From Impatiens glandulifera (taxonomy: Eukaryota; Streptophyta; Magnoliopsida; Ericales; Balsaminaceae): 64,000 nt of DNA. The stretch spans positions 52,207,852-52,271,851 of the forward strand of contig NC_061867.1 in the NCBI RefSeq assembly GCF_907164915.1, written 5' to 3'. Shown here in pieces: positions 1,990 to 46,459 of the stretch (within the stretch, counting starts at the first letter, position 1; every line of letters starts with the position of its first letter). The translations under genes were made by a program, and so were the position numbers. The notes below the pieces were generated by a model. The model was not told the DNA's origin. It was given only the letters and a program-made list of their open reading frames with translations, and made no database searches.

Positions 1990-3099
1990 TTACATCATTG
2001 CCGTCGAATTTAGGAAAGTCGATTCTGGTGAAACTTTTGTGTATATGGTAAGGTCTATTATTCCTATCTCTTGGGTTATGATCATAATTGTTGACATCAT
2101 ATCCAATTTCTTATAATCCTTTCTACGATTATTATTATTCCATTGAAATTTTGTTGGCTTAGGAGTAGGTAATAAGGGAGGTCCATTATTATGTAGATAG
2201 ACTTTTAAAGAATCATATGTTGCTTCTTGAACTCTAGCCATTGCCATAGCATCATTCAATGAATTAGGATGTAAAAGTCTCACAGAATTAGCAATTTCCT
2301 TTCTTATTCCACCTAAGTAACAGTTTAACATGTAATCATTCGGCATTAGGGGAAGCCTATATAAAATCTCAATAAATTTATCGTTATGCTCATTAATTGG
2401 ACCGACTTGTTTGAGATTCATTAGTTCACCCATAGGATCATCAAAAATTGTTTGTCCAAATTTTTTCTTAATTTCTGTTTTAAGAAAATCCCAAGTAATA
2501 ACAAAATTTGCATCTAAATGATTTCGAAAATTTGTATACCATAATCTTGCCTTATCTTTGAAATGTAGACGAACAATTCTTGGTTGAATATCAAGAGGAG
2601 TATTATCGACTTCAAAAAACTCTTCAGCTGCATAAATCCATCCATCAACATCATTGCCGTTGAATTTAGGAAAGTCGATTCTGGTGAAACTTTTGTGTAT
2701 ATGGTAAGGTCTATTATTCTTATCTCTTGGGTTATGATCATAATTGTTGACATCATAGAATTCTCGTTGTTCTTGAGGATTGTGATGACGTCTTCCATCT
2801 CGATCCGGATTGCCTACAGGTTGTTCTTGAGGATCGTGATGACGTCTTGCATCTCGATCTTGATTGTCTTTAGAAAGTTCATCAAGTCTTGATAATATTT
2901 GTTTCATCGTTTCCTCGGTTCTTGTTTGTTGTTCTATCCATTTGGATTCAAATTTGTATACTAAATCCTCGGTATGCTCAAGCATTTTGATTTGCTTATT
3001 TACTTTTTCGTTGAGCACGTTGACACGAACATATAACTCGTCTGTTTCTGTATTTGATTCTTCAGGATCTGATCTTGATCTAGTTCCCACCATTTTGAT
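1990..3099 (-). CDS. Ty3/gypsy gag, altered C-terminus
   Basis: Retrotransposon capsid protein. The open frame extends upstream to 3270, but that reaches across the PBS into the LTR. The sensible start is the Met at 3099 (MVGTRSRSDPEE), 72 bases inside the PBS. Visible parts are an N-terminal coiled-coil-like stretch, a charged linker with a two-fold repeat of the type RDxRRHHxPQEQ, and the Retrotrans_gag core (FPKFNGNDVDGWIYAAEEFF, later WDFLKTEIKKKFG). The last ~37 codons (2101-1992) are a second copy of gag bases 2757-2648 read in another frame, ending at TAA 1990-1992. The normal C-terminus leading to the zinc knuckle is thus lost. Confidence 0.85.
   Translation of the reverse strand: MKMVGTRSRSDPEESNTETDELYVRVNVLNEKVNKQIKMLEHTEDLVYKFESKWIEQQTRTEETMKQILSRLDELSKDNQDRDARRHHDPQEQPVGNPDRDGRRHHNPQEQREFYDVNNYDHNPRDKNNRPYHIHKSFTRIDFPKFNGNDVDGWIYAAEEFFEVDNTPLDIQPRIVRLHFKDKARLWYTNFRNHLDANFVITWDFLKTEIKKKFGQTIFDDPMGELMNLKQVGPINEHNDKFIEILYRLPLMPNDYMLNCYLGGIRKEIANSVRLLHPNSLNDAMAMARVQEATYDSLKVYLHNNGPPLLPTPKPTKFQWNNNNRRKDYKKLDMMSTIMIITQEIGIIDLTIYTKVSPESTFLNSTAMM
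1992..2101. repeat. 110-bp duplicated gag segment (copy of 2648-2757)
   Basis: Bases 1992-2101 match 2648-2757 with two differences in 110. The offset of 656 bp is not a multiple of three, so the copy is read in a different frame. The TAA that ends gag straddles the outer junction. Confidence 0.9.
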
Positions 3100-3170
3100 C
3101 TGATCTTGAAGTTGCTTCTTGATGAGTAAAAAAAATTGCACAGATTTGAATGAGGTCGGAGGGTCTTTTA

Positions 3171-3182
3171 GCTCTGATACCA
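3171..3182 (-). other. Primer binding site (initiator tRNA-Met type)
   Basis: On the minus strand the sequence is TGGTATCAGAGC, the usual plant PBS complementary to the 3' end of initiator tRNA-Met. It sits one base inside the LTR end at 3184. Confidence 0.9.
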
Positions 3183-3183
3183 A

Positions 3184-4044
3184 TGTGACGATACTAGGGA
3201 ATATTTGGAGAATTGAAAGAAGGGGATGAGAAGACAGTAAGAAGAGTTGCAAGAAGAAGGAAGAAATCAAGAAGACACAAGGTGAGAGGAAAATGTAACT
3301 TCATAGAAAAAATTAGTCAATGTTACACTGATGGATCAAAGTTATATAAATAGCTTTGTAATCTGATAACTTTTGTTTTTAATTAAAAGAATAATAACTT
3401 TATTTAATTTTATCATAACTTCAGGGACTATTTTATATTTACATAATATATCAACATTAGGTTTAGATTTCATTTGTTACACAGATGTTTCTCCCTTTGA
3501 GTTCTTCGCCGCTTCTTCTAGGTTTACTCCCTTTCAACTCTTCTGTTACACATTCATTCATCCTCTAATTCGAATTCACATACACCAGGTTTACTCCCTT
3601 TCAACTCTTCTGTTACACATTCATTCATCCTCTAATTCGAATTCACATACACCATCGTATCTTATACTTAAGGATTCCATTATTAACGACATTTAAACCA
3701 TCATTCCTTCATCCCTCTAATTCAAATTCACATATCCATCACATCTCATATCCTTCAAAGATTCAATTATTAACGGCACTGAAACCACCATTCATTCGTC
3801 CCTTTAATTCGAATTCAAATATTTTATCATATCTTATCCTTCTAAGATTTTCATTATTAACTGTATTTGAACCACCGTTCCTTCATCCTTTTAATTCGAA
3901 TTCACATATTCTATCATATCTTATCCTTTAAGAATTTCATTTCTTAACGGTATTTGAATCATCTTTTCTTCATCCATCTAATTCGAATTAACATATTCTA
4001 TTCTATTATATTTTATCTTTCAAAGATTCATTATTAAAATCACA
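3184..4044 (-). repeat. 5' LTR of the gypsy element
   Basis: The boundaries are TGTGA at 3184-3188 and TCACA at 4040-4044, a perfect 5-bp terminal inverted repeat beginning TG and ending CA, directly next to the PBS. Length is 861 bp. Most of its distal half is built of internal tandem repeats: a 67-bp unit twice (3520-3586 and 3587-3653), then about four further units of ~87 bp sharing the core CTAATTCGAATTCACAT (about 3630-4035). Confidence 0.85.
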
Positions 4045-5018
4045 ACTCTTTCAATCTTTTAAATTTGCACTCATATATAAATAATCATATATATAGAGAG
4101 TAATTATAGGGAAAGTGAATCTGGGGCCGCAAAAGTCCGCGAAAATAGAATATTCTATTTAAACACCAAATATTCTCTCTTCTCTTATTAATTAATTTCT
4201 CTCTCTTTCTCTACGAATTAATTAATTTATCTCTATTTTCTCTCATTAATTAATTAATTTATCTCACTAATTAATTTATTTAAACTCTAAACCCTAATTA
4301 ATATCTCTACGTATTACGGGGAATAGAAATATTAAATAAACATAATAAAAATAAAAAAATTATAATAATAAATATATATATATATAATCATCATTATATT
4401 TTAATCTTTATAACACACACTCTAAAATTCACACCAAGTGTAACTCAAACCAATATCAAGAGTTTGAAATGTTAATCATTTAACCATATTGAGCTACTTG
4501 TGATTGTTGAATTCAATTTATAAATTTATGTATGTATATATTTTTAATAATTGTTAATGAATAAGTCCTTCCATTTTTAGATTGCAAGTTCAAAACTTAT
4601 ATTTAACATTTTTATTTTTATTTTTTTAATTTAATCGTTTCAAATTTATGAATAGGTCAACCCGATTCAAATATTCATTTATTCTTATATATATATATAT
4701 ATTTAAATTAACTATAACTCTTGACCTAACAAATAAAAAAAAAATTAAACATAGTTAATTGGATAAATATTGAATGTCAACTTTCATTAAATTTAATATA
4801 TTTGTATGTTTTGCTTTCCTTTGTATTTTCTTACCTAGTTAGCACTAAATGCAATTCTAAAATTAAAATATAAAATCTCAATAGTATATATAATTGATTA
4901 AAGTGTAATACATACATTTCAGGTTGTAAGTACAATACTTATATATAATATATTTAATTTAATTTTTTAAATTAAATTGTTTCAAATTTATGGGTAAATA
5001 AACTCGTAATCCTATTTT

Positions 5019-10264: not shown

Positions 10265-11491
10265 TTAAAATAATAAAGAGAGAGGGAAAGTAAAAAAAAC
10301 TAATATACGCAAATATAACCAGCGCAAGTTAGCAAAACTTACCGCAGAAGAAGTAATATTTAAATAACCAGTCGATGAGTTTTCCGGCGCCGGCAACGGC
10401 GAACGGGAGGAAGAAGACGATGATACCGATCCGCCATGGCTGGTAGTATTACCAACAGACTGTAAACTCGAAAGACCTAAAGGATATGCCGGCGTACCGT
10501 CCGGTTTAAACAAACCGTAATTCCTCTCCGACGTAGGTCCCGGCTTCATATTCTCGTTAAACAGAGCAAAAACGTAGATGTTCAGATCACAATTAGGTCT
10601 CATCGGCGTACCTTTCTTCTGAGAAATGAGTTTCATCAGATTACTATTATATTTCTTAGCATTCTCCGGCGTTGCTCCGTATTCATTCTCATCTCCTTTA
10701 GACGGCCATCCTGTTTCCGAGATCTGAACCGATTGTCTTTTGAATCCAATCGAGGATAAAGCTGAATGAACAGCGTCGATCTGTGCGAATAACATGTTAT
10801 CGTAATGAAGCTTAGTTACAGGATCAACTACTCCTGAATTCGGTTGAAACAGAACGAAATCAATTGAGATCTGTTTCGGACTATCCTTATACGCGAAGTA
10901 CGGATACGCGTTGATTAAAAACGGCGATCCTGTTTTCGTTAAGAAACTCACGATCTGAGTTATCAAACCAGTTAGATCTCGTCGGAATGAACCTGATGAT
11001 GGTGGATATGAGGTTTCAAGTAAGGCGAGTGAATGCGCGGTTGTAACGGAAACCTGTTTGTCTAGATGAAGAGAGACTAGAGCGGAGTGTACGTTTTGCA
11101 TTGCTGGAAGGAGATCGGAGTTGAGATTTGTATCGTTGAAGGTTAATACTTCATTTCCGACGGTTATACAAGTGATGTTTGTTGAAGGAAGGTAGAGTTG
11201 AACATTTGATTTTACCCAAGCTATGGCGGTTTCTGGATCTCGCATTTTGGATAAGTATTCGTTGCCAACGCCAACGATGAATTCGATTCCTGTGTTTGCG
11301 AATGCTTTGAGGACTTGTGGATTGGCGTCGTATAGTTTTACTTTGTTGGCGCCGATTGAGTGGACGAGTGGAACTACGTTTTCTGGTGACGGTATGTTGT
11401 TTGCTATACGGCCGTAGTTAACTCCGATTGCGGTGATTGTTGATGGTAAGAGGATGAAGATGAAGATTGGTGTTAGGATTCTGAAGTCCAT
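10265..11491 (-). CDS. GPI-anchored glucan endo-1,3-beta-glucosidase (GH17)
   Basis: A single-exon frame of 408 residues. Residues 1-21 are a signal peptide. The GH17 barrel starts at IGVNYGRIANNIPSP (about 22). TVGNEVL places the acid/base Glu at 114 and QISETGWPS the nucleophile Glu at 259. NIYVFALFNENMKPGP and ERNYGLFKPDG close the domain near 335. A Ser-rich linker (about 350-370) is followed by a hydrophobic tail from about 383, the pattern of a GPI-anchor signal. There is no CBM43/X8 domain. The protein resembles the Arabidopsis clade that includes the plasmodesmal callose-degrading enzyme At5g42100. It should cleave beta-1,3-glucan (callose) at the cell surface; a plasmodesmal role is inference. 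A strong donor (GCG/GTAAGT) near the 3' end could support an alternative C-terminus. Confidence 0.93.
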   Translation of the reverse strand: MDFRILTPIFIFILLPSTITAIGVNYGRIANNIPSPENVVPLVHSIGANKVKLYDANPQVLKAFANTGIEFIVGVGNEYLSKMRDPETAIAWVKSNVQLYLPSTNITCITVGNEVLTFNDTNLNSDLLPAMQNVHSALVSLHLDKQVSVTTAHSLALLETSYPPSSGSFRRDLTGLITQIVSFLTKTGSPFLINAYPYFAYKDSPKQISIDFVLFQPNSGVVDPVTKLHYDNMLFAQIDAVHSALSSIGFKRQSVQISETGWPSKGDENEYGATPENAKKYNSNLMKLISQKKGTPMRPNCDLNIYVFALFNENMKPGPTSERNYGLFKPDGTPAYPLGLSSLQSVGNTTSHGGSVSSSSSSRSPLPAPENSSTGYLNITSSAVSFANLRWLYLRILVFFTFPLSLLF

Positions 11492-12608
11492 TTTTGGAGA
11501 ATCTTACTGAAATGGAGATCGAACCAGAGATAGAGAGAGAACTGTGAAGGAGGGTTTTGAGAAGAAGATGATGATGATATTATTGCGTTCTTTATTCTTT
11601 TACTTTTTTCTGCTTTTTTGTTGTGCATAAATCCATCAGTTTATTTGAAAATAATTAGATAGTTTTTAAAGTGGAATGATATTTTCCGATCTTCGGGCAA
11701 AAGCAAGGGCACGAATCCGACCTCCCCGTCACGTGTGACATTTTGTGACTCGAAATGTAATTTTTCGGGATATTTTTAATTTTTCTCTCTTCTACCCATA
11801 TGACATACACTTATTTTCGTCGGATTCATGAACTTATTTTCACAGTAACTTCCTTAGTTTAATATTTTTATTTATTTTTATTTTTAAAACTATGAAAAGA
11901 ATGAATGATTAGTTACACAGTATTAAACAGATTTGATGTATTATTTTGGTCGGTTTGTTTGATGGTGGGTTATTTTATTATTATTTTTTATTTATTTTTT
12001 TAAGAAAATAAATTTTAAAAAATAATTGAGAATAGGAATAACAATGCCACTTGAGTGGATATTAAACCCGAACAAAGTTGGCCAAAAATGGGGATGGGGA
12101 TGAGTAGAAGGTGGAGGAGTTTAGGATGGTAATTCTTTGCTCTATCCAATTCTCATATGAGATACATAAAATTATAATTTTATATTATTATATGTGTAAA
12201 CACTAAAATTTTAATAAATAAATTTAAAATAATTAAAATAAATGAAAAAACATGATTAAAATAACTAATTGAAATAATTATTATATTAATTAAATTTCAA
12301 TTAATTAAAATAAAGGTTAAGAAAAATAAATAAAATAATTTAAAATAAATATTATATTCATTTTATCTTAAATTAATTTAAAGGATAAATAAAATAAAAT
12401 AAACTATTTATTTATACTAAATAAATTATTTATAATACTCTAAAAATATTATTAAAAATAAGCATTATAAATATTATGTTGGTTGAAAACAAAGTCAAAT
12501 GGATGAAAAAAAAATAATTTCAAACAAGTTTTAAAGTTGAAAAAAAATCTGATAAGCGCTGAAATTAAAAGAAACCAGTGCAGTAGACCCCACACTTATC
12601 GGATGAGC
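11492..12608. other. Glucanase promoter side and AT-rich spacer
   Basis: Holds the 5' UTR and promoter of the minus-strand glucanase (to about 11650). The rest is AT-rich with no gene or clear repeat. Confidence 0.5.
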
Positions 12609-17300: not shown

Positions 17301-17728
17301 TGTTGATAAAATCTAATAACAGACTTAAAGCCTAAAAGACAGAAGTAGTGCTAAAGTCACAACAAGTGGTGATACTAAATTCATTATTTTATACTTTTTC
17401 TTTTTCTTTTGCTAAATATATTTTTATTTCAATACAAGCTCAAGTTCCTCATGCACCGACATAAATAACCAATTATTTCAAAACAATATTTTTTTTAAAT
17501 ATTTTATATGAGATATCAAGTTGAGATATAATATAATTGTACTTTTTTTTAGAAAAAAAATAAAATCTTAATACTATTTCTATTAAGCTTATAAACGTGA
17601 ATTGATTGCGTAATAAATTGCTACAATGATTTCAACGAATAAATAAAATAATTCGAAACAAATAAGAGAAATAAACTAGAACAATTAAATGTATCAAATA
17701 TAAATATTGTTATCAAACATATCTGATA
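14346..17728. other. Intergenic region with old transposon traces
   Basis: 14358-14780 begins GGGCCCGTTTGGTTGGG and ends near CACCAAACAG, a weak inverted-repeat pair of the sort that bounds plant MITEs, but I could not fix a target duplication. About 15985-16245 resembles a decayed member of the TAxGGATGxCAA hAT family (ending TTGTCATCTTTATT). No gene is supported here. Confidence 0.35.
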
Positions 17729-18190
17729 TCTATATATATATAATGATGCTTAATTTTTAAAGTGTCCGGATTGCCGGGTCGAGAGCTGTGGTTAATTTGG
17801 ATACTTGGGTCGGATTGTGGGTTGACCCGTTTTTAAATTTAAAACGGTTAAAAATAAAATTAAAAATGCTAGAGGTATGTTTCGAACTTGCAACCTAACA
17901 AAATAAGTACAACTCTTTAACCAACTAGGCTACAAAGACTTTATATTTTAAATTCAACACCAAATTTGATAAACGCGGGACGTTTTAATATTAATATAAG
18001 TTCAACTTTTTAACTAACTAATATATAATGATGTTGAGTAAATGGATACTTGGGTCGGATTATGGGTTGACTCACCCATAAACTTAAAACGGTTAAAAAA
18101 TGTCAAAAAATGTTATCCGTAATTTGATAAACGCGGGACGTTTTAATATTAATATAAGTTCAACTTTTTAACTAACTAATCTATATATAT

Positions 18191-18485
18191 ATAATGATGC
18201 TTAATTTTTAAAGTGTCCGGATTGCCGGGTCGAGAGCTGTGGTTAATTTGGATACTTGGGTCGGATTGTGGGTTGACCCGTTTTTAAATTTAAAACGGTT
18301 AAAAATAAAATTAAAAATGCTAGAGGTATGTTTCGAACTTGCAACCTAACAAAACAAGTACAACTCTTTAACCAACTAGGCTACAAAGACTTCATATTTT
18401 AAATTCAACACCAAATTTGATAAACGCGGGACGTTTTAATATTAATATAAGTTCAACTTTTTAACTAACTAATCTATATATATAT
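18191..18485 (+). repeat. Representative long monomer A
   Basis: Begins at the (TA)n/ATAATGATGCTTAA corresponding to the Helitron 5' end. It contains GTGTCCGGATTGCCGGGTCG, GATACTTGGGTCGGATTGTG and GTTTCGAACTTGCAACCT, then AACCAACTAGGCTAC and AACGCGGGACG, and ends TTAACTAACTAA before the next TCTATA. On the minus strand it carries TAGCCTAGTTGG (A-box match), 34 bases, GTTCGAAAC (B-box match), then a T5 run about 20 bases further on. Confidence 0.85.
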
Positions 18486-19065
18486 ATAATGATGCTTAAT
18501 TTTTAAAGTGTCCGGATTGCCGGGTCGAGAGCTGTGGTTAATTTGGATACTTGGGTCGGATTGTGGGTTGACCCGTTTTTAAATTTAAAACGGTTAAAAA
18601 TAAAATTAAAAATGCTAGAGGTATGTTTCGAACTTGCAACCTAACAAAACAAGTACAACTCTTTAACCAACTAGGCTACAAAGACTTTATATTTTAAATT
18701 CAACACCAAATTTGATAAACGCGGGACGTTTTAATATTAATATAAGTTCAACTTTTTAACTAACTAATCTATATATATATAATGATGCTTAATTTTTAAA
18801 GTGTCCGGATTGCCGGGTCGAGAGCTGTGGTTAATTTGGATACTTGGGTCGGATTGTGGGTTGACCCGTTTTTAAATTTAAAACGGTTAAAAATAAAATT
18901 AAAAATGCTAGAGGTATGTTTCGAACTTGCAACCTAACAAAATAAGTACAACTCTTTAACCAACTAGGCTACAAAGACTTTATATTTTAAATTCAACACC
19001 AAATTTGATAAACGCGGGACGTTTTAATATTAATATAAGTTCAACTTTTTAACTAACTAATATAT

Positions 19066-19231
19066 AATGATGTTGAGTAAATGGATACTTGGGTCGGATT
19101 ATGGGTTGACTCACCCATAAACTTAAAACGGTTAAAAAATGTCAAAAAATGTTATCCGTAATTTGATAAACGCGGGACGTTTTAATATTAATATAAGTTC
19201 AACTTTTTAACTAACTAATCTATATATATAT
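19066..19231 (+). repeat. Representative short monomer B
   Basis: Shares the ATAATGATG start, the GATACTTGGGTCGGATTATG and AAACGGTTAAAAA parts and the AACGCGGGACG tail of monomer A. It lacks the CCGGATTGCCGGG region and the whole segment with the tRNA-like boxes, and has its own TGTTATCCGTAATTTG. It reads as an internally deleted or ancestral short form. In the last copy the sequence passes from CCGTAATTT straight into the Helitron 3' end. Confidence 0.8.
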
Positions 19232-22200
19232 AATGATGCTTAATTTTTAAAGTGTCCGGATTGCCGGGTCGAGAGCTGTGGTTAATTTGGATACTTGGGT
19301 CGGATTGTGGGTTGACCCGTTTTTAAATTTAAAACGGTTAAAAATAAAATTAAAAATGCTAGAGGTATGTTTCGAACTTGCAACCTAACAAAACAAGTAC
19401 AACTCTTTAACCAACTAGGCTACAAAGACTTCATATTTTAAATTCAACACCAAATTTGATAAACGCGGGACGTTTTAATATTAATATAAGTTCAACTTTT
19501 TAACTAACTAATCTATATATATATATAATGATGCTTAATTTTTAAAGTGTCCGGATTGCCGGGTCGAGAGCTGTGGTTAATTTGGATACTTGGGTCGGAC
19601 TGTGGGTTGACCCGTTTTTAAATTTAAAACGGTTAAAAATAAAATTAAAAATGCTAGAGGTATGTTTCGAACTTGCAACCTAACAAAACAAGTACAACTC
19701 TTTAACCAACTAGGCTACAAAGACTTTATATTTTAAATTCAACACCAAATTTGATAAACGCGGGACGTTTTAATATTAATATAAGTTCAACTTTTTAACT
19801 AACTAATCTATATATATATAATGATGCTTAATTTTTAAAGTGTCCGGATTGCCGGGTCGAGAGCTGTGGTTAATTTGGATACTTGGGTCGGATTGTGGGT
19901 TGACCCGTTTTTAAATTTAAAACGGTTAAAAATAAAATTAAAAATGCTAGAGGTATGTTTCGAACTTGCAACCTAACAAAATAAGTACAACTCTTTAACC
20001 AACTAGGCTACAAAGACTTTATATTTTAAATTCAACACCAAATTTGATAAACGCGGGACGTTTTAATATTAATATAAGTTCAACTTTTTAACTAACTAAT
20101 ATATAATGATGTTGAGTAAATGGATACTTGGGTCGGATTATGGGTTGACTCACCCATAAACTTAAAACGGTTAAAAAATGTCAAAAAATGTTATCCGTAA
20201 TTTGATAAACGCGGGACGTTTTAATATTAATATAAGTTCAACTTTTTAACTAACTAATCTATATATATATAATGATGCTTAATTTTTAAAGTGTCCGGAT
20301 TGCCGGGTCGAGAGCTGTGGTTAATTTGGATACTTGGGTCGGATTGTGGATTGACCCGTTTTTAAATTTAAAACGGTTAAAAATAAAATTAAAAATGCTA
20401 GAGGTATGTTTCGAACTTGCAACCTAACAAAACAAGTACAACTCTTTAACCAACTAGGCTACAAAGACTTCATATTTTAAATTCAACACCAAATTTGATA
20501 AACGCGGGACGTTTTAATATTAATATAAGTTCAACTTTTTAACTAACTAATCTATATATATATATAATGATGCTTAATTTTTAAAGTGTCCGGATTGCCG
20601 GGTCGAGAGCTGTGGTTAATTTGGATACTTGGGTCGGATTGTGGGTTGACCCGTTTTTAAATTTAAAACGGTTAAAAATAAAATTAAAAAAGCTAGAGGT
20701 ATGTTTCGAACTGGCAACCTAACAAAACAAGTACAACTCTTTAACCAACTAGGCTACAAAGACTTTATATTTTAAATTCAACACCAAATTTGATAAACGC
20801 GGGACGTTTTAATATTAATATAAGTTCAACTTTTTAACTAACTAATCTATATATATATAATGATGCTTAATTTTTAAAGTGTCCGGATTGCCGGGTCGAG
20901 AGCTGTGGTTAATTTGGATACTTGGGTCGGATTGTGGGTTGACCCGTTTTTAAATTTAAAACGGTTAAAAATAAAATTAAAAATGCTAGAGGTATGTTTC
21001 GAACTTGCAACCTAACAAAATAAGTACAACTCTTTAACCAACTAGGCTACAAAGACTTTATATTTTAAATTCAACACCAAATTTGATAAACGCGGGACGT
21101 TTTAATATTAATATAAGTTCAACTTTTTAACTAACTAATATATAATGATGTTGAGTAAATGGATACTTGGGTCGGATTATGGGTTGACTCACCCATAAAC
21201 TTAAAACGGTTAAAAAATGTCAAAAAATGTTATCCGTAATTTGATAAACGCGGGACGTTTTAATATTAATATAAGTTCAACTTTTTAACTAACTAATCTA
21301 TATATATATAATGATGCTTAATTTTTAAAGTGTCCGGATTGCCGGGTCGAGAGCTGTGGTTAATTTGGATACTTGGGTCGGATTGTGGGTTGACCCGTTT
21401 TTAAATTTAAAACGGTTAAAAATAAAATTAAAAATGCTAGAGGTATGTTTCGAACTTGCAACCTAACAAAACAAGTACAACTCTTTAACCAACTAGGCTA
21501 CAAAGACTTCATATTTTAAATTCAACACCAAATTTGATAAACGCGGGACGTTTTAATATTAATATAAGTTCAACTTTTTAACTAACTAATCTATATATAT
21601 ATATAATGATGCTTAATTTGTAAAGTGTCCGGATTGCCGGGTCGAGAGCTGTGGTTAATTTGGATACTTGGGTCGGATTGTGGGTTGACCCGTTTTTAAA
21701 TTTAAAACGGTTAAAAATAAAATTAAAAATGCTAGAGGTATGTTTCGAACTTGCAACCTAACAAAACAAGTACAACTCTTTAACCAACTAGGCTACAAAG
21801 ACTTTATATTTTAAATTCAACACCAAATTTGATAAACGCGGGACGTTTTAATATTAATATAAGTTCAACTTTTTAACTAACTAATCTATATATATATAAT
21901 GATGCTTAATTTTTAAAGTGTCCGGATTGCCGGGTCGAGAGCTGTGGTTAATTTGGATACTTGGGTCGGATTGTGGGTTGACCCGTTTTTAAATTTAAAA
22001 CGGTTAAAAATAAAATTAAAAATGCTACAGGTATGTTTCGAACATGCAACCTAACAAAATAAGTACAACTCTTTAACCAACTAGGCTACAAATGCTTTAT
22101 ATTTTAAATTCAACACCAAATTTGATAAACGCGGGACGTTTTAATATTAATATAAGTTCAACTTTTTAACTAACTAATATATAATGATGTTGAGTAAATG

Positions 22201-25200
22201 GATACTTGGGTCGGATTATGGGTTGACTCACCCATAAACTTAAAACGGTTAAAAAATGTCAAAAAATGTTATCCGTAATTTGATAAACGCGGGACGTTTT
22301 AATATTAATATAAGTTCAACTTTTTAACTAACTAATCTATATATATATAATGATGCTTAATTTTTAAAGTGTCCGGATTGCCGGGTCGAGAGCTGTGGTT
22401 AATTTGGATACTTGGGTCGGATTGTGGGTTGACCCGTTTTTAAATTTAAAACGGTTAAAAATAAAATTAAAAATGCTAGAGGTATGTTTCGAACTTGCAA
22501 CCTAACAAAACAAGTACAACTCTTTAACCAACTAGGCTACAAAGACTTCATATTTTAAATTCAACACCAAATTTGATAAACGCGGGACGTTTTAATATTA
22601 ATATAAGTTCAACTTTTTAACTAACTAATCTATATATATATATATAATGATGCTTAATTTTTAAAGTGTCCGGATTGCCGGGTCGAGAGCTGTGGTTAAT
22701 TTGGATACTTGGGTCGGATTGTGGGTTGACCCGTTTTTAAATTTAAAACGGTTAAAAATAAAATTAAAAATGCTAGAGGTATGTTTCGAACTTGCAACCT
22801 AACAAAACAAGTACAACTCTTTAACCAACTAGGCTACAAAGACTTTATATTTTAAATTCAACACCAAATTTGATAAACGCGGGACGTTTTAATATTAATA
22901 TAAGTTCAACTTTTTAACTAACTAATCTATATATATATAATGATGCTTAATTTTTAAAGTGTCCGGATTGCCGGGTCGAGAGCTGTGGTTAATTTGGATA
23001 CTTGGGTCGGATTGTGGGTTGACCCGTTTTTAAATTTAAAACGGTTAAAAATAAAATTAAAAATGCTAGAGGTATGTTTCGAACTTGCAACCTAACAAAA
23101 TAAGTACAACTCTTTAACCAACTAGGCTACAAAGACTTTATATTTTAAATTCAACACCAAATTTGATAAACGCGGGACGTTTTAATATTAATATAAGTTC
23201 AACTTTTTAACTAACTAATATATAATGATGTTGAGTAAATGGATACTTGGGTCGGATTATGGGTTGACTCACCCATAAACTTAAAACGGTTAAAAAATGT
23301 CAAAAAATGTTATCCGTAATTTGATAAACGCGGGACGTTTTAATATTAATATAAGTTCAACTTTTTAACTAACTAATCTATATATATATAATGATGCTTA
23401 ATTTTTAAAGTGTCCGGATTGCCGGGTCGAGAGCTGTGGTTAATTTGGATACTTGGGTCGGATTGTGGGTTGACCCGTTTTTAAATTTAAAACGGTTAAA
23501 AATAAAATTAAAAATGCTAGAGGTATGTTTCGAACTTGCAACCTAACAAAACAAGTACAACTCTTTAACCAACTAGGCTACAAAGACTTCATATTTTAAA
23601 TTCAACACCAAATTTGATAAACGCGGGACGTTTTAATATTAATATAAGTTCAACTTTTTAACTAACTAATCTATATATATATATAATGATGCTTAATTTT
23701 TAAAGTGTCCGGATTGCCGGGTCGAGAGCTGTGGTTAATTTGGATACTTGGGTCGGATTGTGGGTTGACCCGTTTTTAAATTTAAAACGGTTAAAAATAA
23801 AATTAAAAATGCTAGAGGTATGTTTCGAACTTGCAACCTAACAAAACAAGTACAACTCTTTAACCAACTAGGCTACAAAGACTTTATATTTTAAATTCAA
23901 CACTAAATTTGATAAACGCGGGACGTTTTAATATTAATATAAGTTCAACTTTTTAACTAACTAATCTATATATATATAATGATGCTTAATTTTTAAAGTG
24001 TCCGGATTGCCGGGTCGAGAGCTGTGGTTAATTTGGATACTTGGGTCGGATTGTGGGTTGACCCGTTTTTAAATTTAAAACGGTTAAAAATAAAATTAAA
24101 AATGCTAGAGGTATGTTTCGAACTTGCAACCTAACAAAATAAGTACAACTCTTTAACCAACTAGGCTACAAAGACTTTATATTTTAAATTCAACACCAAA
24201 TTTGATAAACGCGGGACGTTTTAATATTAATATAAGTTCAACTTTTTAACTAACTAATATATAATGATGTTGAGTAAATGGATACTTGGGTCGGATTATG
24301 GGTTGACTCACCCATAAACTTAAAACGGTTAAAAAATGTCAAAAAATGTTATCCGTAATTTGATAAACGCGGGACGTTTTAATATTAATATAAGTTCAAC
24401 TTTTTAACTAACTAATCTATATATATATAATGATGCTTAATTTTTAAAGTGTCCGGATTGCCGGGTCGAGAGCTGTGGTTAATTTGGATACTTGGGTCGG
24501 ATTGTGGGTTGACCCGTTTTTAAATTTAAAACGGTTAAAAATAAAATTAAAAATGCTAGAGGTATGTTTCGAACTTACAACCTAACAAAACAAGTACAAC
24601 TCTTTAACCAACTAGGCTACAAAGACTTCATATTTTAAATTCAACACCAAATTTGATAAACGCGGGACGTTTTAATATTAATATAAGTTCAACTTTTTAA
24701 CTAACTAATCTATATATATATATAATGATGCTTAATTTTTAAAGTGTCCGGATTGCCGGGTCGAGAGCTGTGGTTAATTTGGATACTTGGGTCGGATTGT
24801 GGGTTGACCCGTTTTTAAATTTAAAACGGTTAAAAATAAAATTAAAAATGCTAGAGGTATGTTTCGAACTTGCAACCTAACAAAACAAGTACAACTCTTT
24901 AACCAACTAGGCTACAAAGACTTTATATTTTAAATTCAACACCAAATTTGATAAACGCGGGACGTTTTAATATTAATATAAGTTCAACTTTTTAACTAAC
25001 TAATCTATATATATATAATGATGCTTAATTTTTAAAGTGTCCGGATTGCCGGGTCGAGAGCTGTGGTTAATTTGGATACTTGGGTCGGATTGTGGGTTGA
25101 CCCGTTTTTAAATTTAAAACGGTTAAAAATAAAATTAAAAATGCTAGAGGTATGTTTCGAACTTGCAACCTAACAAAATAAGTACAACTCTTTAACCAAC

Positions 25201-28200
25201 TAGGCTACAAAGACTTTATATTTTAAATTCAACACCAAATTTGATAAACGCGGGACGTTTTAATATTAATATAAGTTCAACTTTTTAACTAACTAATATA
25301 TAATGATGTTGAGTAAATGGATACTTGGGTCGGATTATGGGTTGACTCACGCATAAACTTAAAACGGTTAAAAAATGTCAAAAAATGTTATCCGTAATTT
25401 GATAAACGCGGGACGTTTTAATATTAATATAAGTTCAACTTTTTAACTAACTAATCTATATATATATAATGATGCTTAATTTTTAAAGTGTCCGGATTGC
25501 CGGGTCGAGAGCTGTGGTTAATTTGGATACTTGGGTCGGATTGTGGGTTGACCCGTTTTTAAATTTAAAACGGTTAAAAATAAAATTAAAAATGCTAGAG
25601 GTATGTTTCGAACTTGCAACCTAACAAAACAAGTACAACTCTTTAACCAACTAGGCTACAAAGACTTCATATTTTAAATTCAACACCAAATTTGATAAAC
25701 GCGGGACGTTTTAATATTAATATAAGTTCAACTTTTTAACTAACTAATCTATATATATATATAATGATGCTTAATTTTTAAAGTGTCCGGATTGCCGGGT
25801 CGAGAGCTGTGGTTAATTTGGATACTTGGGTCGGATTGTGGATTGACCCGTTTTTAAATTTAAAACGGTTAAAAATAAAATTAAAAATGCTAGAGGTATG
25901 TTTCGAACTTGCAACCTAACAAAACAAGTACAACTCTTTAACCAACTAGGCTACAAAGACTTTATATTTTAAATTCAACACCAAATTTGATAAACGCGGG
26001 ACGTTTTAATATTAATATAAGTTCAACTTTTTAACTAACTAATCTATATATATATAATGATGCTTAATTTTTAAAGTGTCCGGATTGCCGGGTCGAGAGC
26101 TGTGGTTAATTTGGATACTTGGGTCGGATTGTGGGTTGACCCGTTTTTAAATTTAAAACGGTTAAAAATAAAATTAAAAATGTTAGAGGTATGTTTCGAA
26201 CTTGCAACCTAACAAAATAAGTACAACTCTTTAACCAACTAGGCTACAAAGACTTTATATTTTAAATTCAACACCAAATTTGATAAACGCGGGACGTTTT
26301 AATATTAATATAAGTTCAACTTTTTAACTAACTAATATATAATGATGTTGAGTAAATGGATACTTGGGTCGGATTATGGGTTGACTCACCCATAAACTTA
26401 AAACGGTTAAAAAATGTCAAAAAATGTTATCCGTAATTTGATAAACGCGGGACGTTTTAATATTAATATAAGTTCAACTTTTTAACTAACTAATCTATAT
26501 ATATATAATGATGCTTAATTTTTAAAGTGTCCGGATTGCCGGGTCGAGAGCTGTGGTTAATTTGGATACTTGGGTCGGATTGTGGGTTGACCCGTTTTTA
26601 AATTTAAAACGGTTAAAAATAAAATTAAAAATGCTAGAGGTATGTTTCGAACTTGCAACCTAACAAAACAAGTACAACTCTTTAACCAACTAGGCTACAA
26701 AGACTTCATATTTTAAATTCAACACCAAATTTGATAAACGCGGGACGTTTTAATATTAATATAAGTTCAACTTTTTAACTAACTAATCTATATATATATA
26801 ATGATGCTTAATTTTTAAAGTGTCCGGATTGCCGGGTCGAGAGCTGTGGTTAATTTGGATACTTGGGTCGGATTGTGGGTTGACCCGTTTTTAAATTTAA
26901 AACGGTTAAAAATAAAATTAAAAATGCTAGAGGTATGTTTCGAACTTGCAACCTAACAAAACAAGTACAACTCTTTAACCAACTAGGCTACAAAGACTTT
27001 ATATTTTAAATTCAACACCAAATTTGATAAACGCGGGACGTTTTAATATTAATATAAGTTCAACTTTTTAACTAACTAATCTATATATATATAATGATGC
27101 TTAATTTTTAAAGTGTCCGGATTGCCGGGTCGAGAGCTGTGGTTAATTTGGATACTTGGGTCGGATTGTGGGTTGACCCGTTTTTAAATTTAAAACGGTT
27201 AAAAATAAAATTAAAAATGCTAGAGGTATGTTTCGAACTTGCAACCTAACAAAATAAGTACAACTCTTTAACCAACTAGGCTACAAAGACTTTATATTTT
27301 AAATTCAACACCAAATTTGATAAACGCGGGACGTTTTAATATTAATATAAGTTCAACTTTTTAACTAACTAATATATAATGATGTTGAGTAAATGGATAC
27401 TTGGGTCGGATTATGGGTTGACTCACCCATAAACTTAAAACGGTTAAAAAATGTCAAAAAATGTTATCCGTAATTTGATAAACGCGGGACGTTTTAATAT
27501 TAATATAAGTTCAACTTTTTAACTAACTAATCTATATATATATAATGATGCTTAATTTTTAAAGTGTCCGGATTGCCGGGTCGAGAGCTGTGGTTAATTT
27601 GGATACTTGGGTCGGATTGTGGGTTGACCCGTTTTTAAATTTAAAACGGTTAAAAATAAAATTAAAAATGCTAGAGGTATGTTTCGAACTTGCAACCTAA
27701 CAAAACAAGTACAACTCTTTAACCAACTAGGTTACAAAGACTTCATATTTTAAATTCAACACCAAATTTGATAAACGCGGGACGTTTTAATATTAATATA
27801 AGTTCAACTTTTTAACTAACTAATCAATATATATATATAATGATGCTTAATTTTTAAAGTGTCCGGATTGCCGGGTCGAGAGCTGTGGTTAATTTGGATA
27901 CTTGGGTCGGATTGTGGGTTGACCCGTTTTTAAATTTAAAACGGTTAAAAATAAAATTAAAAATGCTAGAGGTATGTTTCGAACTTGCAACCTAACAAAA
28001 CAAGTACAACTCTTTAACCAACTAGGCTACAAAGACTTTATATTTTAAATTCAACACCAAATTTGATAAACGCGGGACGTTTTAATATTAATATAAGTTC
28101 AACTTTTTAACTAACTAATCTATATATATATAATGATGCTTAATTTTTAAAGTGTCCGGATTGCCGGGTCGAGAGCTGTGGTTAATTTGGATACTTGGGT

Positions 28201-31042
28201 CGGATTGTGGGTTGACCCGTTTTTAAATTTAAAACGGTTACAACTAAAATTAAAAATGCTAGATGTATGTTTCGAACTTGCAACCTAACAAAATAAGTAC
28301 AACTCTTTAACCAACTAGGCTACAAAGACTTTATATTTTAAATTCAACACCAAATTTGATAAACGCGGGACGTTTTAATATTAATATAAGTTCAACTTTT
28401 TAACTAACTAATATATAATGATGTTGAGTAAATGGATACTTGGGTCGGATTATGGGTTGACTCACCCATAAACTTAAAACGGTTAAAAAATGTCAAAAAA
28501 TGTTATCCGTAATTTGATAAACGCGGGACGTTTTAATATTAATATAAGTTCAACTTTTTAACTAACTAATCTATATATATATAATGATGCTTAATTTTTA
28601 AAGTGTCCGGATTGCCGGGTCGAGAGCTGTGGTTAATTTGGATACTTGGGTCGGATTGTGGGTTGACCCGTTTTTAAATTTAAAACGGTTAAAAATAAAA
28701 TTAAAAATGCTAGAGGTATGTTTCGAACTTGCAACCTAACAAAACAAGTACAACTCTTTAACCAACTAGGCTACAAAGACTTCATATTTTAAATTCAACA
28801 CCAAATTTGATAAACGCGGGACGTTTTAATATTAATATAAGTTCAACTTTTTAACTAACTAATCTATATATATATATAATGATGCTTAATTTTTAAAGTG
28901 TCCGGATTGCCGGGTCGAGAGCTGTGGTTAATTTGGATACTTGGGTCGGATTGTGGGTTGACCCGTTTTTAAATTTAAAACGGTTAAAAATAAAATTAAA
29001 AATGCTAGAGGTATGTTTCGAACTTGCAACCTAACAAAACAAGTACAACTCTTTAACCAACTAGGCTACAAAGACTTTATATTTTAAATTCAACACCAAA
29101 TTTGATAAACGCGGGACGTTTTAATATTAATATAAGTTCAACTTTTTAACTAACTAATCTATATATATATAATGATGCTTAATTTTTAAAGTGTCCGGAT
29201 TGCCGGGTCGAGAGCTGTGGTTAATTTGGATACTTGGGTCGGATTGTGGGTTGACCCGTTTTTAAATTTAAAACGGTTAAAAATAAAATTAAAAATGCTA
29301 GAGGTATGTTTCGAACTTGCAACCTAACAAAATAAGTACAACTCTTTAACCAACTAGGCTACAAAGACTTTATATTTTAAATTCAACACCAAATTTGATA
29401 AACGCGGGACGTTTTAATATTAATATAAGTTCAACTTTTTAACTAACTAATATATAATGATGTTGAGTAAATGGATACTTGGGTCGGATTATGGGTTGAC
29501 TCACCCATAAACTTAAAACGGTTAAAAAATGTCAAAAAATGTTATCCGTAATTTGATAAACGCGGGACGTTTTAATATTAATATAAGTTCAACTTTTTAA
29601 CTAACTAATCTATATATATATAATGATGCTTAATTTTTAAAGTGTCCGGATTGCCGGGTCGAGAGCTGTGGTTAATTTGGATACTTGGGTCGGATTGTGG
29701 GTTGACCCGTTTTTAAATTTAAAACGGTTAAAAATAAAATTAAAAATGCTAGAGGTATGTTTCGAACTTGCAACCTAACAAAACAAGTACAACTCTTTAA
29801 CCAACTAGGCTACAAAGACTTCATATTTTAAATTCAACACCAAATTTGATAAACGCGGGACGTTTTAATATTAATATAAGTTCAACTTTTTAACTAACTA
29901 ATCTATATATATATAATGATGCTTAATTTTTAAAGTGTCCGGATTGCCGGGTCGAGAGCTGTGGTTAATTTGGATACTTGGGTCGGATTGTGGGTTGACC
30001 CGTTTTTAAATTTAAAACGGTTAAAAATAAAATTAAAAATGCTAGAGGTATGTTTCGAACTTGCAACCTAACAAAACAAGTACAACTCTTTAACCAACTA
30101 GGCTACAAAGACTTTATATTTTAAATTCAACACCAAATTTGATAAACGCGGGACGTTTTAATATTAATATAAGTTCAACTTTTTAACTAACTAATATATA
30201 ATGATGTTGAGTAAATGGATACTTGGGTCGGATTATGGGTTGACTCACCCATAAACTTAAAACGGTTAAAAAATGTCAAAAAATGTTATCCGTAATTTGA
30301 TAAACGCGGGACGTTTTAATATTAATATAAGTTCAACTTTTTAACTAACTAATCTATATATATATAATGATGCTTAATTTTTAAAGTGTCCGGATTGCCG
30401 GGTCGAGAGCTGTGGTTAATTTGGATACTTGGGTCGGATTGTGGGTTGACCCGTTTTTAAATTTAAAACGGTTAAAAATAAAATTAAAAATGCTAGAGGT
30501 ATGTTTCGAACTTGCAACCTAACAAAATAAGTACAACTCTTTAACCAACTAGGCTACAAAGACTTCATATTTTAAATTCAACACCAAATTTGATAAACGC
30601 GGGACGTTTTAATATTAATATAAGTTCAACTTTTTAACTAACTAATCTATATATATATAATGATGCTTAATTTTTAAAGTGTCCGGATTGCCGGGTCGAG
30701 AGCTGTGGTTAATTTGGATACTTGGGTCGGATTGTGGGTTGACCCGTTTTTAAATTTAAAACGGTTAAAAATAAAATTAAAAATGCTAGAGGTATGTTTC
30801 GAACTTGCAACCTAACAAAACAAGTACAACTCTTTAACCAACTAGGCTACAAAGACTTTATATTTTAAATTCAACACCAAATTTGATAAACGCGGGACGT
30901 TTTAATATTAATATAAGTTCAACTTTTTAACTAACTAATATATAATGATGTTGAGTAAATGGATATTTGGGTCGGATTATGGGTTGACTCACCCATAAAC
31001 TTAAAACGGTTAAAAAATGTCAAAAAATGTTATCCGTAATTT

Positions 31043-31095
31043 TTTTTTACGATTTTTATATTATTACTCGTGCTAATGCACGGGCTAAATGCTAG
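31043..31095 (+). other. Helitron 3' terminus with hairpin
   Basis: Hairpin arms are at 31067-31073 and 31078-31084, the 11-base spacer at 31085-31095 ends in CTAG, and the host T is 31096. Layout and distances fit the terminator structure known for plant Helitrons. Confidence 0.88.
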
Positions 31096-32610
31096 TTTAA
31101 CTAATAAGATAAATTAAACTAGCCATTTTATCTAAATCTAAATAAAAGTTTAGTCCAAGGGTTATTCAATTCAGCTTATAATCATGAATAAGTATCAAAT
31201 TAACCAAGATAACTAGTACATCATCTATGAGAAAAGCAATTAGACATATTGGGTTCGTTTGAAAATATTTTGTCGGTTATTTCTCGTATAGATCCATATT
31301 CAAATCAAAATCGAGAAACTGTAACAATTCGAGATGTAAGAAACAAATTCAAACAAGATCAGAATTATTTTGCTCTAGCAAATAACAAAAAAAATCTAAT
31401 CAAACTTGAATAAACCGAATATTATAAAACATATATATGATTATTTAACAATTAAACAAATAAGATAATCAAACTAGCCATTTTATCTATATATAAACAA
31501 AAGTTTAATTAGGTATTATTCAATTTAGTGGTAAAACTCAACTTAAGAAACTAAAATATTATGGATTCGATTTCATCTAAAAACACTTGAGTTTAAATAG
31601 GGCTGTAAAGTATAATGTTAGTTCTCTTTTAATCAAAAACAAATTAACTCATAGTAAGATTTTTTTTATCAAAGAAGTGAATAAACCAATCCAACTTCTA
31701 ATTTTCAAATTTGTTCCATCAGGATGCACACCCTACAATGAAAAAATCATCGAAAAACATCTTTTGGACTATTTCTCACATTGATTCAGATTCAAATCCA
31801 TATCGAGAAACCAAAATAATTTGATGGTTTCAATGTAAACAACAAATTCGAACAAAATCAGAAGATTTTGCACCAGCAAATAACAAAAAAAAAATCAAGC
31901 ATATTTAACAATTTAAATAAACAGAATATTATCAAACATACATGATGGTTTAACAAATAAGGTGTATCAAACTAGAAACTAGCCCAACATCTCGATTTCA
32001 AATCTGATTTATCAAGATGCACACCCCACAATGAGACAATGAATTAGACATATTGAGCTCGTTCGAAAACATTCAGTTATTTCTCATATGGACCAGATTC
32101 AAATCAAAATCGAGAAACCAAAACAATTCAAACAAAATCAGAATAATCTTGTACCAACAAACAACAACAAATATAATCAAACATACAAATGATTAGCAAA
32201 CATTTCTTGTCGATTAACAAATAAGATGAATCAAACTAGCCATTTTTATTTTGATCTAAGTAAGAGTTTAATTAGGGGTTATTCAATTCAGCTTATAGTA
32301 TCAAATTTACCAAGATTTTAACAAATAAGCTGAATGAAACTAGCCCAACATCTCGTTTTCAAATCGAATCCATCAAAATGCACATCCCACACATTCCCAC
32401 AATGAGAAAATCAGTTAGACATATTGGACTAGTTCGAAAACATCTTTTCGGTTATTTCTCACATGGATCCTCTATTCAAATCAAAATCGAGAAACCGAAA
32501 CAATACGAGGGTTTCAATGTAAGCAACAAATTCTAACAAGATCAATGATTTTGCACCAACAAACTACAAAAATAGACATCAAAATGCCTTGCCTCAAAAG
32601 AAGTCAATAT
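31096..32610. repeat. Degenerate tandem repeats, ~320-490-bp spacing
   Basis: At least four diverged copies carry GGTTATTTCTC.TATGGATCC, TCAAATCAAAATCGAGAAACC, CAACAAATTC.AACAA.ATCAG and CAAATAAG.T.AATCAAACTAGCC. Anchors for the TATTTCTC word lie near 31275, 31768, 32088 and 32450. The Helitron is inserted in a further copy whose left part is at about 17600-17728. The open frame at 31587 is a by-product. Confidence 0.7.
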
Positions 32611-40366: not shown

Positions 40367-42934
40367 ATGCCTTCCGCTTCCTCCGCCATCATCAACACCA
40401 TTCACTCCATCCCTCGCAGTTTCGATCCCCCTTCCATCAAACCCATCTCTCAATTTCTCGGATCCACAACCAAATTACGCCCATCACCTCTCAGAACCCA
40501 TTCCTTAACATCATCATCAATCAGCCGTCAATCTACAATCGTCGCAGTTTCTGATGTCGTCAAAGAGAAAGACCTCAAGCACAAATCATTGGTATAAAAA
40601 CCCAGATCAGTTAAATTGTTTCTTCTCTTTCTCTTTCCCAGTTTCCTCCATTTGAATCTTCATTTTTTGTTTTGTTTTTGCAGCTAATCACGAAAGAGGA
40701 AGGATTGGAACTATACGAGGATATGATCCTTGGAAGAGCATTTGAAGATATGTGTGCTCAGATGTATTACAGAGGTAAAATGTTCGGATTTGTCCATCTT
40801 TACAACGGACAAGAAGCTGTTTCAACTGGGTTTATCAAACTCCTCACTAAAGAAGATTCAGTTGTCAGCACATACCGTGACCATGTCCATGCCTTAAGTA
40901 AAGGCGTCCCTGCACGCGCTGTCATGAGTGAGCTCTTTGGAAAGACAACTGGTTGCTGCCGTGGTCAAGGTGGATCCATGCACATGTTCTCCAAAGAACA
41001 CAATGTCTTAGGAGGGTTTGCTTTCATCGGAGAAGGAATTCCGGTAGCTACAGGGGCTGCATTCACTTCTAAGTATAGGAGAGAGGTATTGAAAGAGAAG
41101 AATGCTGATCAGGTAACTTTGGCTTTCTTTGGAGATGGTACATGTAACAATGGACAATTCTTTGAATGTTTGAACATGGCTGCTTTGTGGAAATTACCAA
41201 TTGTGTTTGTGGTGGAGAATAATTTGTGGGCAATTGGGATGTCTCATTTGAGATCTACTTCTGATCCTGAGATATGGAAGAAAGGTCCTGCATTTGGGAT
41301 GCCTGGTGTTCATGTGGATGGGATGGATGTTTTGAAAGTTAGAGAGGTGGCTAAAGAGGCGGTTGAACGAGCTAGGAGAGGAGAAGGACCGACTTTGGTC
41401 GAATGTGAAACTTACAGATTTAGGGGACACTCTTTGGCTGATCCTGATGAACTTCGTGACCCTGGTTAGTACTACTCTAAATTTATCACTTGTTACTATG
41501 ATATGTTGAATCAGTTTGCCTTCGCCTTAAGTTGACTTTGAGTAAATCCATAATGTCTCACATAAATGATTTAGTTTAGCCTTGCTAATGGTTGCAAAGA
41601 AGTGTTAGAGTTTTGGTGACCCAAATGAGTTTGTCGATTCAAGACATAAGAAAACCTAAATTTGCCATAACAATGCTGAGTTTCCACTTATATCTTGTTT
41701 AATTTACGTAGTTTTTGCATTTTACTTTGTCATCGAATTATTTCAATAAATCATATAATTTAGAAACACTTTATGGATAGGCCTGGCTGGATTTGGATCC
41801 TGATACTGATGAGAAACAGTCAATCAATTTTTGAATGTGTGTGACCTCATCTGGATCCAGATCCAGAAAGTTTTCCAAATAGGCCTTAAAAATTCACCCT
41901 TAACATCACACAATCCCTTGCTCCCTTAAGCCATCATTAAACTAGGAACCCAGTTAAGGTTGAGCATACTCCACAGTAGGGGTGACAATAGGCACCTTAC
42001 TTGCAGCCTAAAATTCAAAAATATCGGCATTGAACTAATAAGCTTGTGGATATTGAAGTTCCACAAGCGATACTTCATGATAGTGTGTTTGAAGTTGTTG
42101 ATTGAATTCCTTATGATATGCAATTGAAACATGTTATTGCTAATTGTAAAAATATGGATTTAAATGTGGGCGTTGTTCTTATTTTATCTTATGGTTTTGA
42201 ATTAGCTTTCTCCAGATTCTTTTGAATTGTACAAGATTAGTAGGTTCTGACTTGGATTTGCATTGTAGATTTAGGCTTTAACATTAGCAACACCTTCGTA
42301 TTATAGTAGGTTCTGACTTGGTTAGTAGCTTCATACTTTGGTTTTTGCATCTAGATCCAGATATGTAAACAAATTTCTGAATTTTTGTCACACTAACTTC
42401 ATAAACATGTTGGCAAATATGATCCCATCTGAATCTGGAAACACATAAGTGACTAGTATAACTTAACATCCTGATGAGATACTTAGAAAAAAATGTTTTC
42501 AAGAAAATTTATGTATGTTTTCTCGTCTAGCTCTAGCTCTAGCTCCAGCTCCAGAAAGTGTTTCTAAATGGGCTTGATTCGATATTTAACCTTCAATCTT
42601 GAGTTTGTGTATAATGGAAGATTATATATTGAGTTGTTTCACAATTTTTATTGCAGCTGAGAAGGCTCACTATGCAACAAGAGACCCCATTACAGCCTTA
42701 AAGAAATACATGATTGAGAACAAACTAACCGGAGAATCAGAGTTGAAAGCCATTGAGAAAAAGATCGACGAGCTACTTGAAGATGCTGTGGAGTTTGCAG
42801 AAGCGAGCCCTCTTCCCCAAAGGAGCCAACTTTTGGAAAACGTATTTGCAGACCCAAAAGGTTTTGGAATCGCCCCTGATGGAACTTATAGATGCGAAGA
42901 TCCAAAATTCACCGAAGGTACTGCTCAGGTCTAG
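40367..42934 (+). CDS. Pyruvate dehydrogenase E1 component subunit alpha, plastidic
   Basis: Three exons, 40367-40591, 40684-41464 and 42657-42934, give 427 residues, close to the Arabidopsis plastid enzyme. Exon 1 is nearly all chloroplast transit peptide (Ser/Pro/Thr-rich, to about 60). The thiamine diphosphate motif runs from GDGTCNNGQ (225) to VVENN (254-255). [12 protein letters not shown] and [12 protein letters not shown] are the conserved active-site and loop regions. With the beta subunit it decarboxylates pyruvate and passes the acetyl group to E2, feeding acetyl-CoA to fatty-acid synthesis in the stroma. The mitochondrial paralogue is excluded by the transit peptide and the FRGHSLADP form of the loop. 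Intron 2 (1192 bp) contains copies of an intron-borne inverted-repeat family. The gene is tail to tail with the START gene, about 450 bp apart. Confidence 0.95.
41760..41890. repeat. Intron-borne inverted repeat (PDH intron 2)
   Basis: Starts TTTAGAAACACTTTATGGA and ends GATCCAGAAAGTTTTCCAAA, so its ends are imperfect inverted repeats. Relatives occur in PDH intron 2 (about 42340-42580), START introns (about 44150-44460), GT31 introns (about 50270-50520, 51400-51560, 51991-52220) and the zinc-transporter UTR intron (about 61130-61250). Confidence 0.55.
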
Positions 42935-46231: not shown

Positions 46232-46459
46232 TAGTATAATTAAAGATGAAAATTACAACTATATTTTCTTTTAAATTGATTAGTAATTAATTCATTAAGA
46301 TTAAGATGGAGATGGTATTTATATAATTTATAAATACCCATTTTTTAGTATAATTAAAGATGAAAATTACAACTATATTTTCTTTTAAATTGATTAGTAA
46401 TTAGTTCATTAAGATTAAGATGGAGATGGTATTTATATAATTTATAAATACCCATTTTT
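46232..46459. repeat. Two-copy 114-bp tandem duplication
   Basis: 46232-46345 and 46346-46459 are almost identical; one difference is clear (TAATTAATTC versus TAATTAGTTC). A recent local duplication with no coding content. Confidence 0.9.

Follow-up and report, generated by a model that had tools for sequence, protein, structure and literature searches.

Gene surroundings and boundaries of the element

The window, i.e., the whole 64-kb stretch of Impatiens glandulifera DNA that was analysed, contains several genes around a long tandem array. The Pfam scan covered 10 of the 35 listed open reading frames (ORFs) and gave matches for seven, including the following:

1990-3300, minus strand: Ty3-type gag
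10265-11503: GH17
40615-41469 and 42590-42934: parts of an E1 dehydrogenase
61401-62528: cation-efflux protein

The GH17, E1 dehydrogenase and cation-efflux matches agree with the setting among genes that the earlier note had attributed to the array. Two smaller repeats were also observed. A tandem block lying near the Ty3-type gag frame (3520-4037) comprises a 67-bp unit present twice at 100% and an 87-bp unit present 4.8 times at 77%; at 46232-46459 a 114-bp unit occurs twice with 99% matches, probably representing a recent duplication.

The array itself occupies an intergenic stretch of about 13.4 kb (17729-31095), which opens with a 5' TC and closes with a 3' hairpin plus CTAG. Its overall extent and its terminator are as follows:

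17729-31095, plus strand: whole non-autonomous Helitron, 13,367 bp (terminus checks, paralogous empty sites, no ORF of at least 90 aa inside)
31067-31084, plus strand: terminator hairpin with a 7-bp stem, including one G-T pair, and a 4-base loop (hairpin scan and folding)

The 5' TC (17729-17730), canonical for plant Helitrons, is placed exactly at the edge of the repeat. From this point on, the first and the second lap of the repeat are identical at 1038 of 1039 positions, and the 40 bp upstream of 17729 match the 40 bp preceding an internal A unit at 12 positions out of 40. At the opposite end, the last four bases (CTAG, 31092-31095) conform to the CTRR motif and are followed by a T, so that the element is flanked by an A at 17728 and a T at 31096. 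The terminator hairpin is 18 nt long in total, has G-C in five of its seven pairs and is separated from CTAG by a spacer of 7 bases, ending 11 nt before the 3' end; the definition of plant Helitrons quoted in PMC6591975 describes a GC-rich hairpin of 16-20 nt located 10-15 nt upstream of the 3' end.

A scan for a hairpin followed by CTRR|T on both strands of the 64 kb disclosed two sites, versus a mean of 0.2 in 20 order-1 simulations, and one of the two is the end at 31095; the other (33234, minus strand) shows no visible tie to the array and was treated as a chance occurrence. The 56 nt of the 3' end fold with a z of -2.9, just one of 200 shuffled sequences folding as well, and the stem keeps 5 bp in the best structure and 6 bp in the centroid. 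No further exact copies of the 3' end were found within the 64-kb window, where only weak short matches were retrieved (best E 0.008, 25 bp). Since no stop-to-stop ORF of at least 90 aa exists between 17729 and 31095, and hence no RepHel protein, the element is assigned to the non-autonomous members, for which RepHel is not required.

Organization of the tandem units and their joints

The tandem repeat, which is present in the repeat-finder list as well, spans positions 17729-31042, i.e., everything except the final 53 bp of the element (13,314 of 13,367 bp). Splitting the element at the shared unit end yielded 52 units of two types, A (38 units, 293-297 bp) and B (14 units, 157-158 bp). Most A units are 293 bp long (28 cases), nine are of 295 bp and one of 297 bp; 13 B units measure 158 bp and the last one 157 bp. 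The units follow each other in the order A B, then AAAB repeated eleven times, then AAB, and lastly another AAB that ends in the 53-bp tail. Three A subtypes occupy fixed places and are recognized by a C at column 218 (A1), a longer TA run (A2) or a T at column 180 (A3); the A unit starting at 30353 is mixed, bearing the marks of both A3 and A1. The components of the array, all on the plus strand, are listed below:

17729-30194, plus strand: twelve laps of A3-B-A1-A2, with a consensus of 1039 bp (lap comparison)
17729-18021, plus strand: first A unit, subtype A3, 293 bp, whose first bases are the outer 5' TC terminus (unit splitting)
18022-18179, plus strand: first internal B, 158 bp, a B head joined at AATTT to an A tail (unit and lap comparison)
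30195-31042, plus strand: irregular 3' part after lap 12, with a B, the mixed A (30353), an A2' and the repeat part of the last B (unit splitting)
30939-31095, plus strand: last B, the sole unit with its own 3' end (unit and lap comparison)
31043-31095, plus strand: single 53-bp 3' tail with hairpin and CTAG (unit splitting, scan and folding)

All 38 A units start with TC, 37 of them with exactly TCTATATATATA and one with TCAATA. Hence, 38 5' ends are found versus one single 3' end provided with hairpin and CTAG. On the whole, the region 17729-31095 is one Helitron, in which the front end is repeated in tandem over nearly the whole length and one tail closes the series.

A tRNA-derived segment was considered in the A unit on account of its tRNA-like look on the reverse strand, and it was discarded: ARAGORN returned 0 genes in 17600-20200, Rfam, with E values up to 1 allowed, returned no matches in 17600-19250, and in 17855-17955 Rfam gave only two chance-level matches to other families (E 4.5 and 5.3).

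The comparison of the two kinds of B is informative on how the units are joined. The last B tracks the other B units for 104 bp, with one base differing, and then switches to the 53-bp tail; conversely, the internal B corresponds to the last B up to AATTT, save one base (C28T), and then continues as the tail of an A. The tails of A and of internal B are identical at 58 bases out of 58, whereas their heads differ, being recognisably related but diverged, and the 5-bp sequence AATTT occurs in both partners of the joint. As judged from these alignments, the internal B might be a B deprived of its hairpin and joined at the 5-bp shared sequence to an A tail, in a direction of change that we infer.

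The tetranucleotide CTAA precedes all the 37 A units after the first one, thus producing CTRR|TC, the form of a head-to-tail circle joint. In the rest of the window CTRR is found at 1002 of 101,268 positions (1.0%), and the CTAA joint counts as a single observation, made post hoc, with a level of about 1%. The idea that each A might end in a degenerate 3' hairpin was abandoned: the 60-nt tail of the first A does fold (5-bp and 4-bp stems), no better than shuffled sequences (z -0.63, 50 of 200 as good), which leaves the CTAA ending as the only hint.

Throughout the 64-kb window, the units occur in this one array and in one decayed two-unit relative:

4458-4990, minus strand: old and decayed relative preserving portions of two A-like units in head-to-tail order (alignment score 137)

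This score compares with values not exceeding 63 in 300 shuffles and 59.5 in a control on 22 other 2-kb stretches searched on both strands (44 in all). The relative is far more diverged than the units of the array, from which it does not differ in unit order, and the scan gave no hairpin plus CTRR|T site at 4458-4990. Its existence implies that the family is older than the array; a head-to-tail tendency is perhaps older as well.

Empty sites and variation among laps

The two flanks of the element were joined and compared with the 64-kb window. They are embedded in an old local tandem duplication (31096-32582) present in several copies sharing 69-83% identity, which is the source of the empty-site comparison. 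Two paralogous copies of the insertion site lacking the element were recognized through the joined-flank alignment:

32121-32327, plus strand: first empty site, a paralogous copy devoid of the element
31849-31975, plus strand: second empty site, likewise a paralogous copy

The joined flanks match across the join at 32156-32316 (74%, E 3.6e-25) and at 31877-31975 (72%, E 1e-6), and in both empty sites they meet with differences of about 2 bp and without a target-site duplication. A third local copy (31381-31540) shows an 8-9 bp indel, the position of which, at the join or close to it, varies between two scorings. As for the match at 32.2 kb, its right half is strong (136 versus 71 in shuffles) and its left half, taken alone, is weak (58 versus a best of 55 in 500 shuffles). 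Since the joined flanks align over the junction with nearby old repeats and no duplication is seen, the alignments provide good evidence for one single insertion between A and T, without target-site duplication.

In the light of these data, the 5' TC, the 3' hairpin plus CTAG and the A|T insertion proposed in the earlier note are borne out by the repeat edge, the scan, the folding and the two empty sites; the almost entirely repetitive interior has been recovered in the unit splitting, and the assignment to a Helitron with a higher-order tandem body is strengthened by the empty-site comparison. The picture of a satellite enclosed in one pair of termini holds in part: the array is indeed bounded by both ends, but the 5' end is no wrapper around a foreign satellite. 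No non-repeat sequence exists between the outer 5' end and the array, which implies that the element's own 5' end belongs to the repeat.

The TC found at the start of every A partly follows from periodicity, as the sequence at the edge recurs in each unit wherever an array is cut; therefore, the 38 TC starts are by themselves no proof of growth from a Helitron 5' end. Such an origin rests on the element having moved, as witnessed by the empty site, and on the absence of any further sequence at its 5' end. It is known that Helraiser, a bat Helitron that has been reconstructed, cannot do without its 5' end, and that its hairpin acts as the terminator, read-through increasing when the hairpin is lost (PMC4778049). 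By analogy, a working 5' end should be present at the 5' edge of this element, and its sequence recurs in each A.

The same facts bear on the capture of an existing satellite by the Helitron machinery, which would have started at a 5' position within the satellite and read through to a 3' end. There is a single copy of the 53-bp tail, which could have been gained late; PMC4778049 describes both read-through and new 3' ends, and periodicity by itself would place the 5' sequence in every A. However, given the lack of any non-repeat Helitron 5' sequence before the array and the need for the 5' end in Helraiser, the satellite itself would have had to possess a working 5' end; moreover, the unit before each TC ends in CTAA, which is a CTRR. 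We regard such a capture as improbable.

The sequence variation within the array was assessed on the twelve laps (17729-30194), leaving out 30195-31095; columns 747-750 (the TA run) were kept outside the substitution score, and with them the A/T change of lap 10 at 749 and the TA loss mentioned below. The mean pairwise identity of the laps is 99.7% and the lowest 99.3% (ungapped columns), with a divergence density of 0.14% per site. All the 18 scored substitutions are private to one lap; ten of the twelve laps carry at least one of them, and laps 1 and 12 none. The extra TA of A2 is missing in both laps 9 and 12, and a G-to-A change at column 97 is found in two A units holding different places in the lap (20258 and 25748); both might be due to recurrence or exchange.

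That all the scored substitutions are lap-private indicates that the laps arose quickly. In a simulation of growth, the probability of observing 18 private substitutions out of 18 was 0.0006 when laps were added steadily up to the present, with no later pause, and 0.17 when growth was followed by a pause of three growth units; the external share of branch length was about 0.85 or more at the 95% level. If a plant mutation rate of 7e-9 per site and year is taken, the 0.14% per site would give the array an age of about 0.2 million years, provided that conversion has not reset the divergence. The low divergence and the private substitutions make it plausible, on sequence grounds, that we are dealing with a satellite caught at birth, as the earlier note had put it.

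These data are also the ones against which the main rival to rolling-circle copying, i.e., growth after insertion, has to be weighed. In this scenario a short Helitron with two or few A units would have been inserted first, and the array would have grown in place by unequal crossing-over or replication slippage, which is the classic origin of higher-order repeats. The two-A units, the mixed A and the TA loss common to laps 9 and 12 do point to some exchange or recurrence. On the other hand, 0 of the 18 scored substitutions are common to two of the 12 laps, and growth in place must have stopped before most substitutions arose, at least about 85% of the branch length being external at the 95% level. 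On balance, we consider this scenario unlikely.

The private changes are not evenly distributed. Ten pairs fall within 70 bp of each other in the same lap, a value reached in 4 of 20,000 random draws, with the 70-bp limit having been picked post hoc, after inspection of the data. Three tight clusters, in the laps starting at 19807, 21885 and 28119 (laps 3, 5 and 11), hold nine of the 18 private substitutions; eight of these nine are transversions, and seven of the other nine changes are transitions. This clustering is not explained by simple ageing, and it may reflect an assembly error, error-prone synthesis or conversion by another copy. Repeats of 1 kb that are nearly identical pose difficulties in assembly; these difficulties, together with the three clusters, might suggest that the number of laps is in part an assembly artefact, an explanation that is compatible with the other ones. 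Nevertheless, the presence of at least one private substitution in 10 of the 12 laps shows that they are not copies of one read, and both the ends and the units are independent of the exact lap number; accordingly, we give an artefactual lap number little credit.

Probable rolling-circle origin and comparison with known arrays

The reading that we favour, and hold to be probable, is that of a single insertion of a non-autonomous Helitron, the interior of which had been multiplied through rolling-circle replication. Here the 5' end (TC) is borne by the A unit, whose downstream end (CTAA, followed by the next TC) has no GC-rich hairpin to stop replication. The B unit would have lost its hairpin by joining at AATTT to an A tail, thus leading into the next 5' end. 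A circle of about 1039 bp (A3-B-A1-A2) would then have been copied about twelve times, the copying of this hairpin-less circle ending at the one remaining hairpin/CTAG, and the finished product would have entered its site between A and T. What the sequence shows is the single insertion, the 5' end repeated in 38 A units, the one 3' end, the chimeric internal B and the near-identical laps with their lap-private substitutions; the existence of the circle, the supply of a transposase in trans, the way in which B changed and the singleness of the event are the parts of this model that we infer. The copying of a hairpin-less circle up to the sole terminator would account for the many 5' ends, the one 3' end and the uniform laps, and removal of the 3' terminator from the circle is the route already proposed for arrays with many 5' ends (PMC12628747).

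Some observations speak against this rolling-circle reading. Unequal crossing-over and gene conversion can also yield near-identical laps, and private substitutions are also expected from quick stepwise growth followed by a pause (the case with P = 0.17). Besides, at least one exchange or repeated change would be needed to produce the mixed A (30353) and the units with two A towards the 3' end. The TA loss common to laps 9 and 12, the G-to-A change present in two A units and the clustering of the private substitutions weigh against this reading too. The stricter version, in which the whole higher-order array was made in one transposition, with about twelve rounds of copying of the hairpin-less circle before a complete 13.4-kb product entered gene-bearing DNA, is advanced tentatively, as a possibility that we rather doubt.

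Arrays of this general type have been described. According to the account given in a 2025 review (PMC12628747), Xiong, Dooner and Du (2016, Plant J 88:1038) surveyed 27 plant genomes and disclosed a large number of tandem arrays built of Helitrons that were truncated and partly decayed. Many arrays have multiple 5' ends and a single 3' end, with several to several hundred repeats; the same account reports their proposal that the 3' terminator was lost from the circle and that rolling-circle replication followed. The papers citing that work describe its arrays as mostly centromeric (PMC12628747, PMC6591975), and tandem Helitron arrays in plants and bats are cited in PMC5876387 as support for rolling-circle transposition. 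The array described here shares with them the many 5' ends, the one 3' end and the units without terminator. Unlike the arrays portrayed by the citing papers as partly decayed and mostly centromeric, it lies among genes and is about 99.7% uniform between laps; moreover, it differs from those descriptions in its A-B-A-A higher-order pattern and in the visible terminator-less joint.

Other Helitrons are known to carry tandem repeats. DHH_Mothra, a rice non-autonomous Helitron of 1252-2741 bp, has two blocs of tandem repeats (as described in PMC4683698). Like the present element, it is a plant non-autonomous Helitron with TC/CTAG ends, a hairpin and tandem repeats, whose number in Mothra differs between copies; unlike the internal blocs of Mothra, the repeat described here starts right from the 5' end and extends over 13.3 kb. 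In the same way, the Helitrons and Helentrons with central satellite-like arrays described in PMC12628747, PMC7492417 and PMC4067079 are mobile elements carrying an array of this kind; in those descriptions the array is located between conserved end segments, whereas here the 5' end is inside the repeat. Lastly, the FoHeli elements of Fusarium have multiple 5' termini and one 3' terminus, in the form of typically short duplications (<200 bp) for which self-insertion is invoked by the authors, as described in PMC5148889; repeated 5' ends with a single 3' end are a common trait, but the array described here is long. Judging by the titles and abstract openings of a set of papers on Helitrons and higher-order repeats or satellites in plants, none deals with a higher-order Helitron array. 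Thus, Helitron arrays combining multiple 5' ends with a single 3' end were already known in plants, and, as far as the citing papers go, the distinctive traits of the present one are its uniformity, the higher-order pattern, the visible breakpoint and the gene-bearing setting.

How satellites begin is an open question, many arrays being too old to be read. The present array is young, retains both ends, an empty site and a readable terminator-less joint, and its private substitutions set a bound on the speed of its growth; being young and readable, it is a good test case for the rolling-circle model of plant Helitron arrays. If its origin in one transposition were true, higher-order repeats would not need to come from unequal crossing-over.
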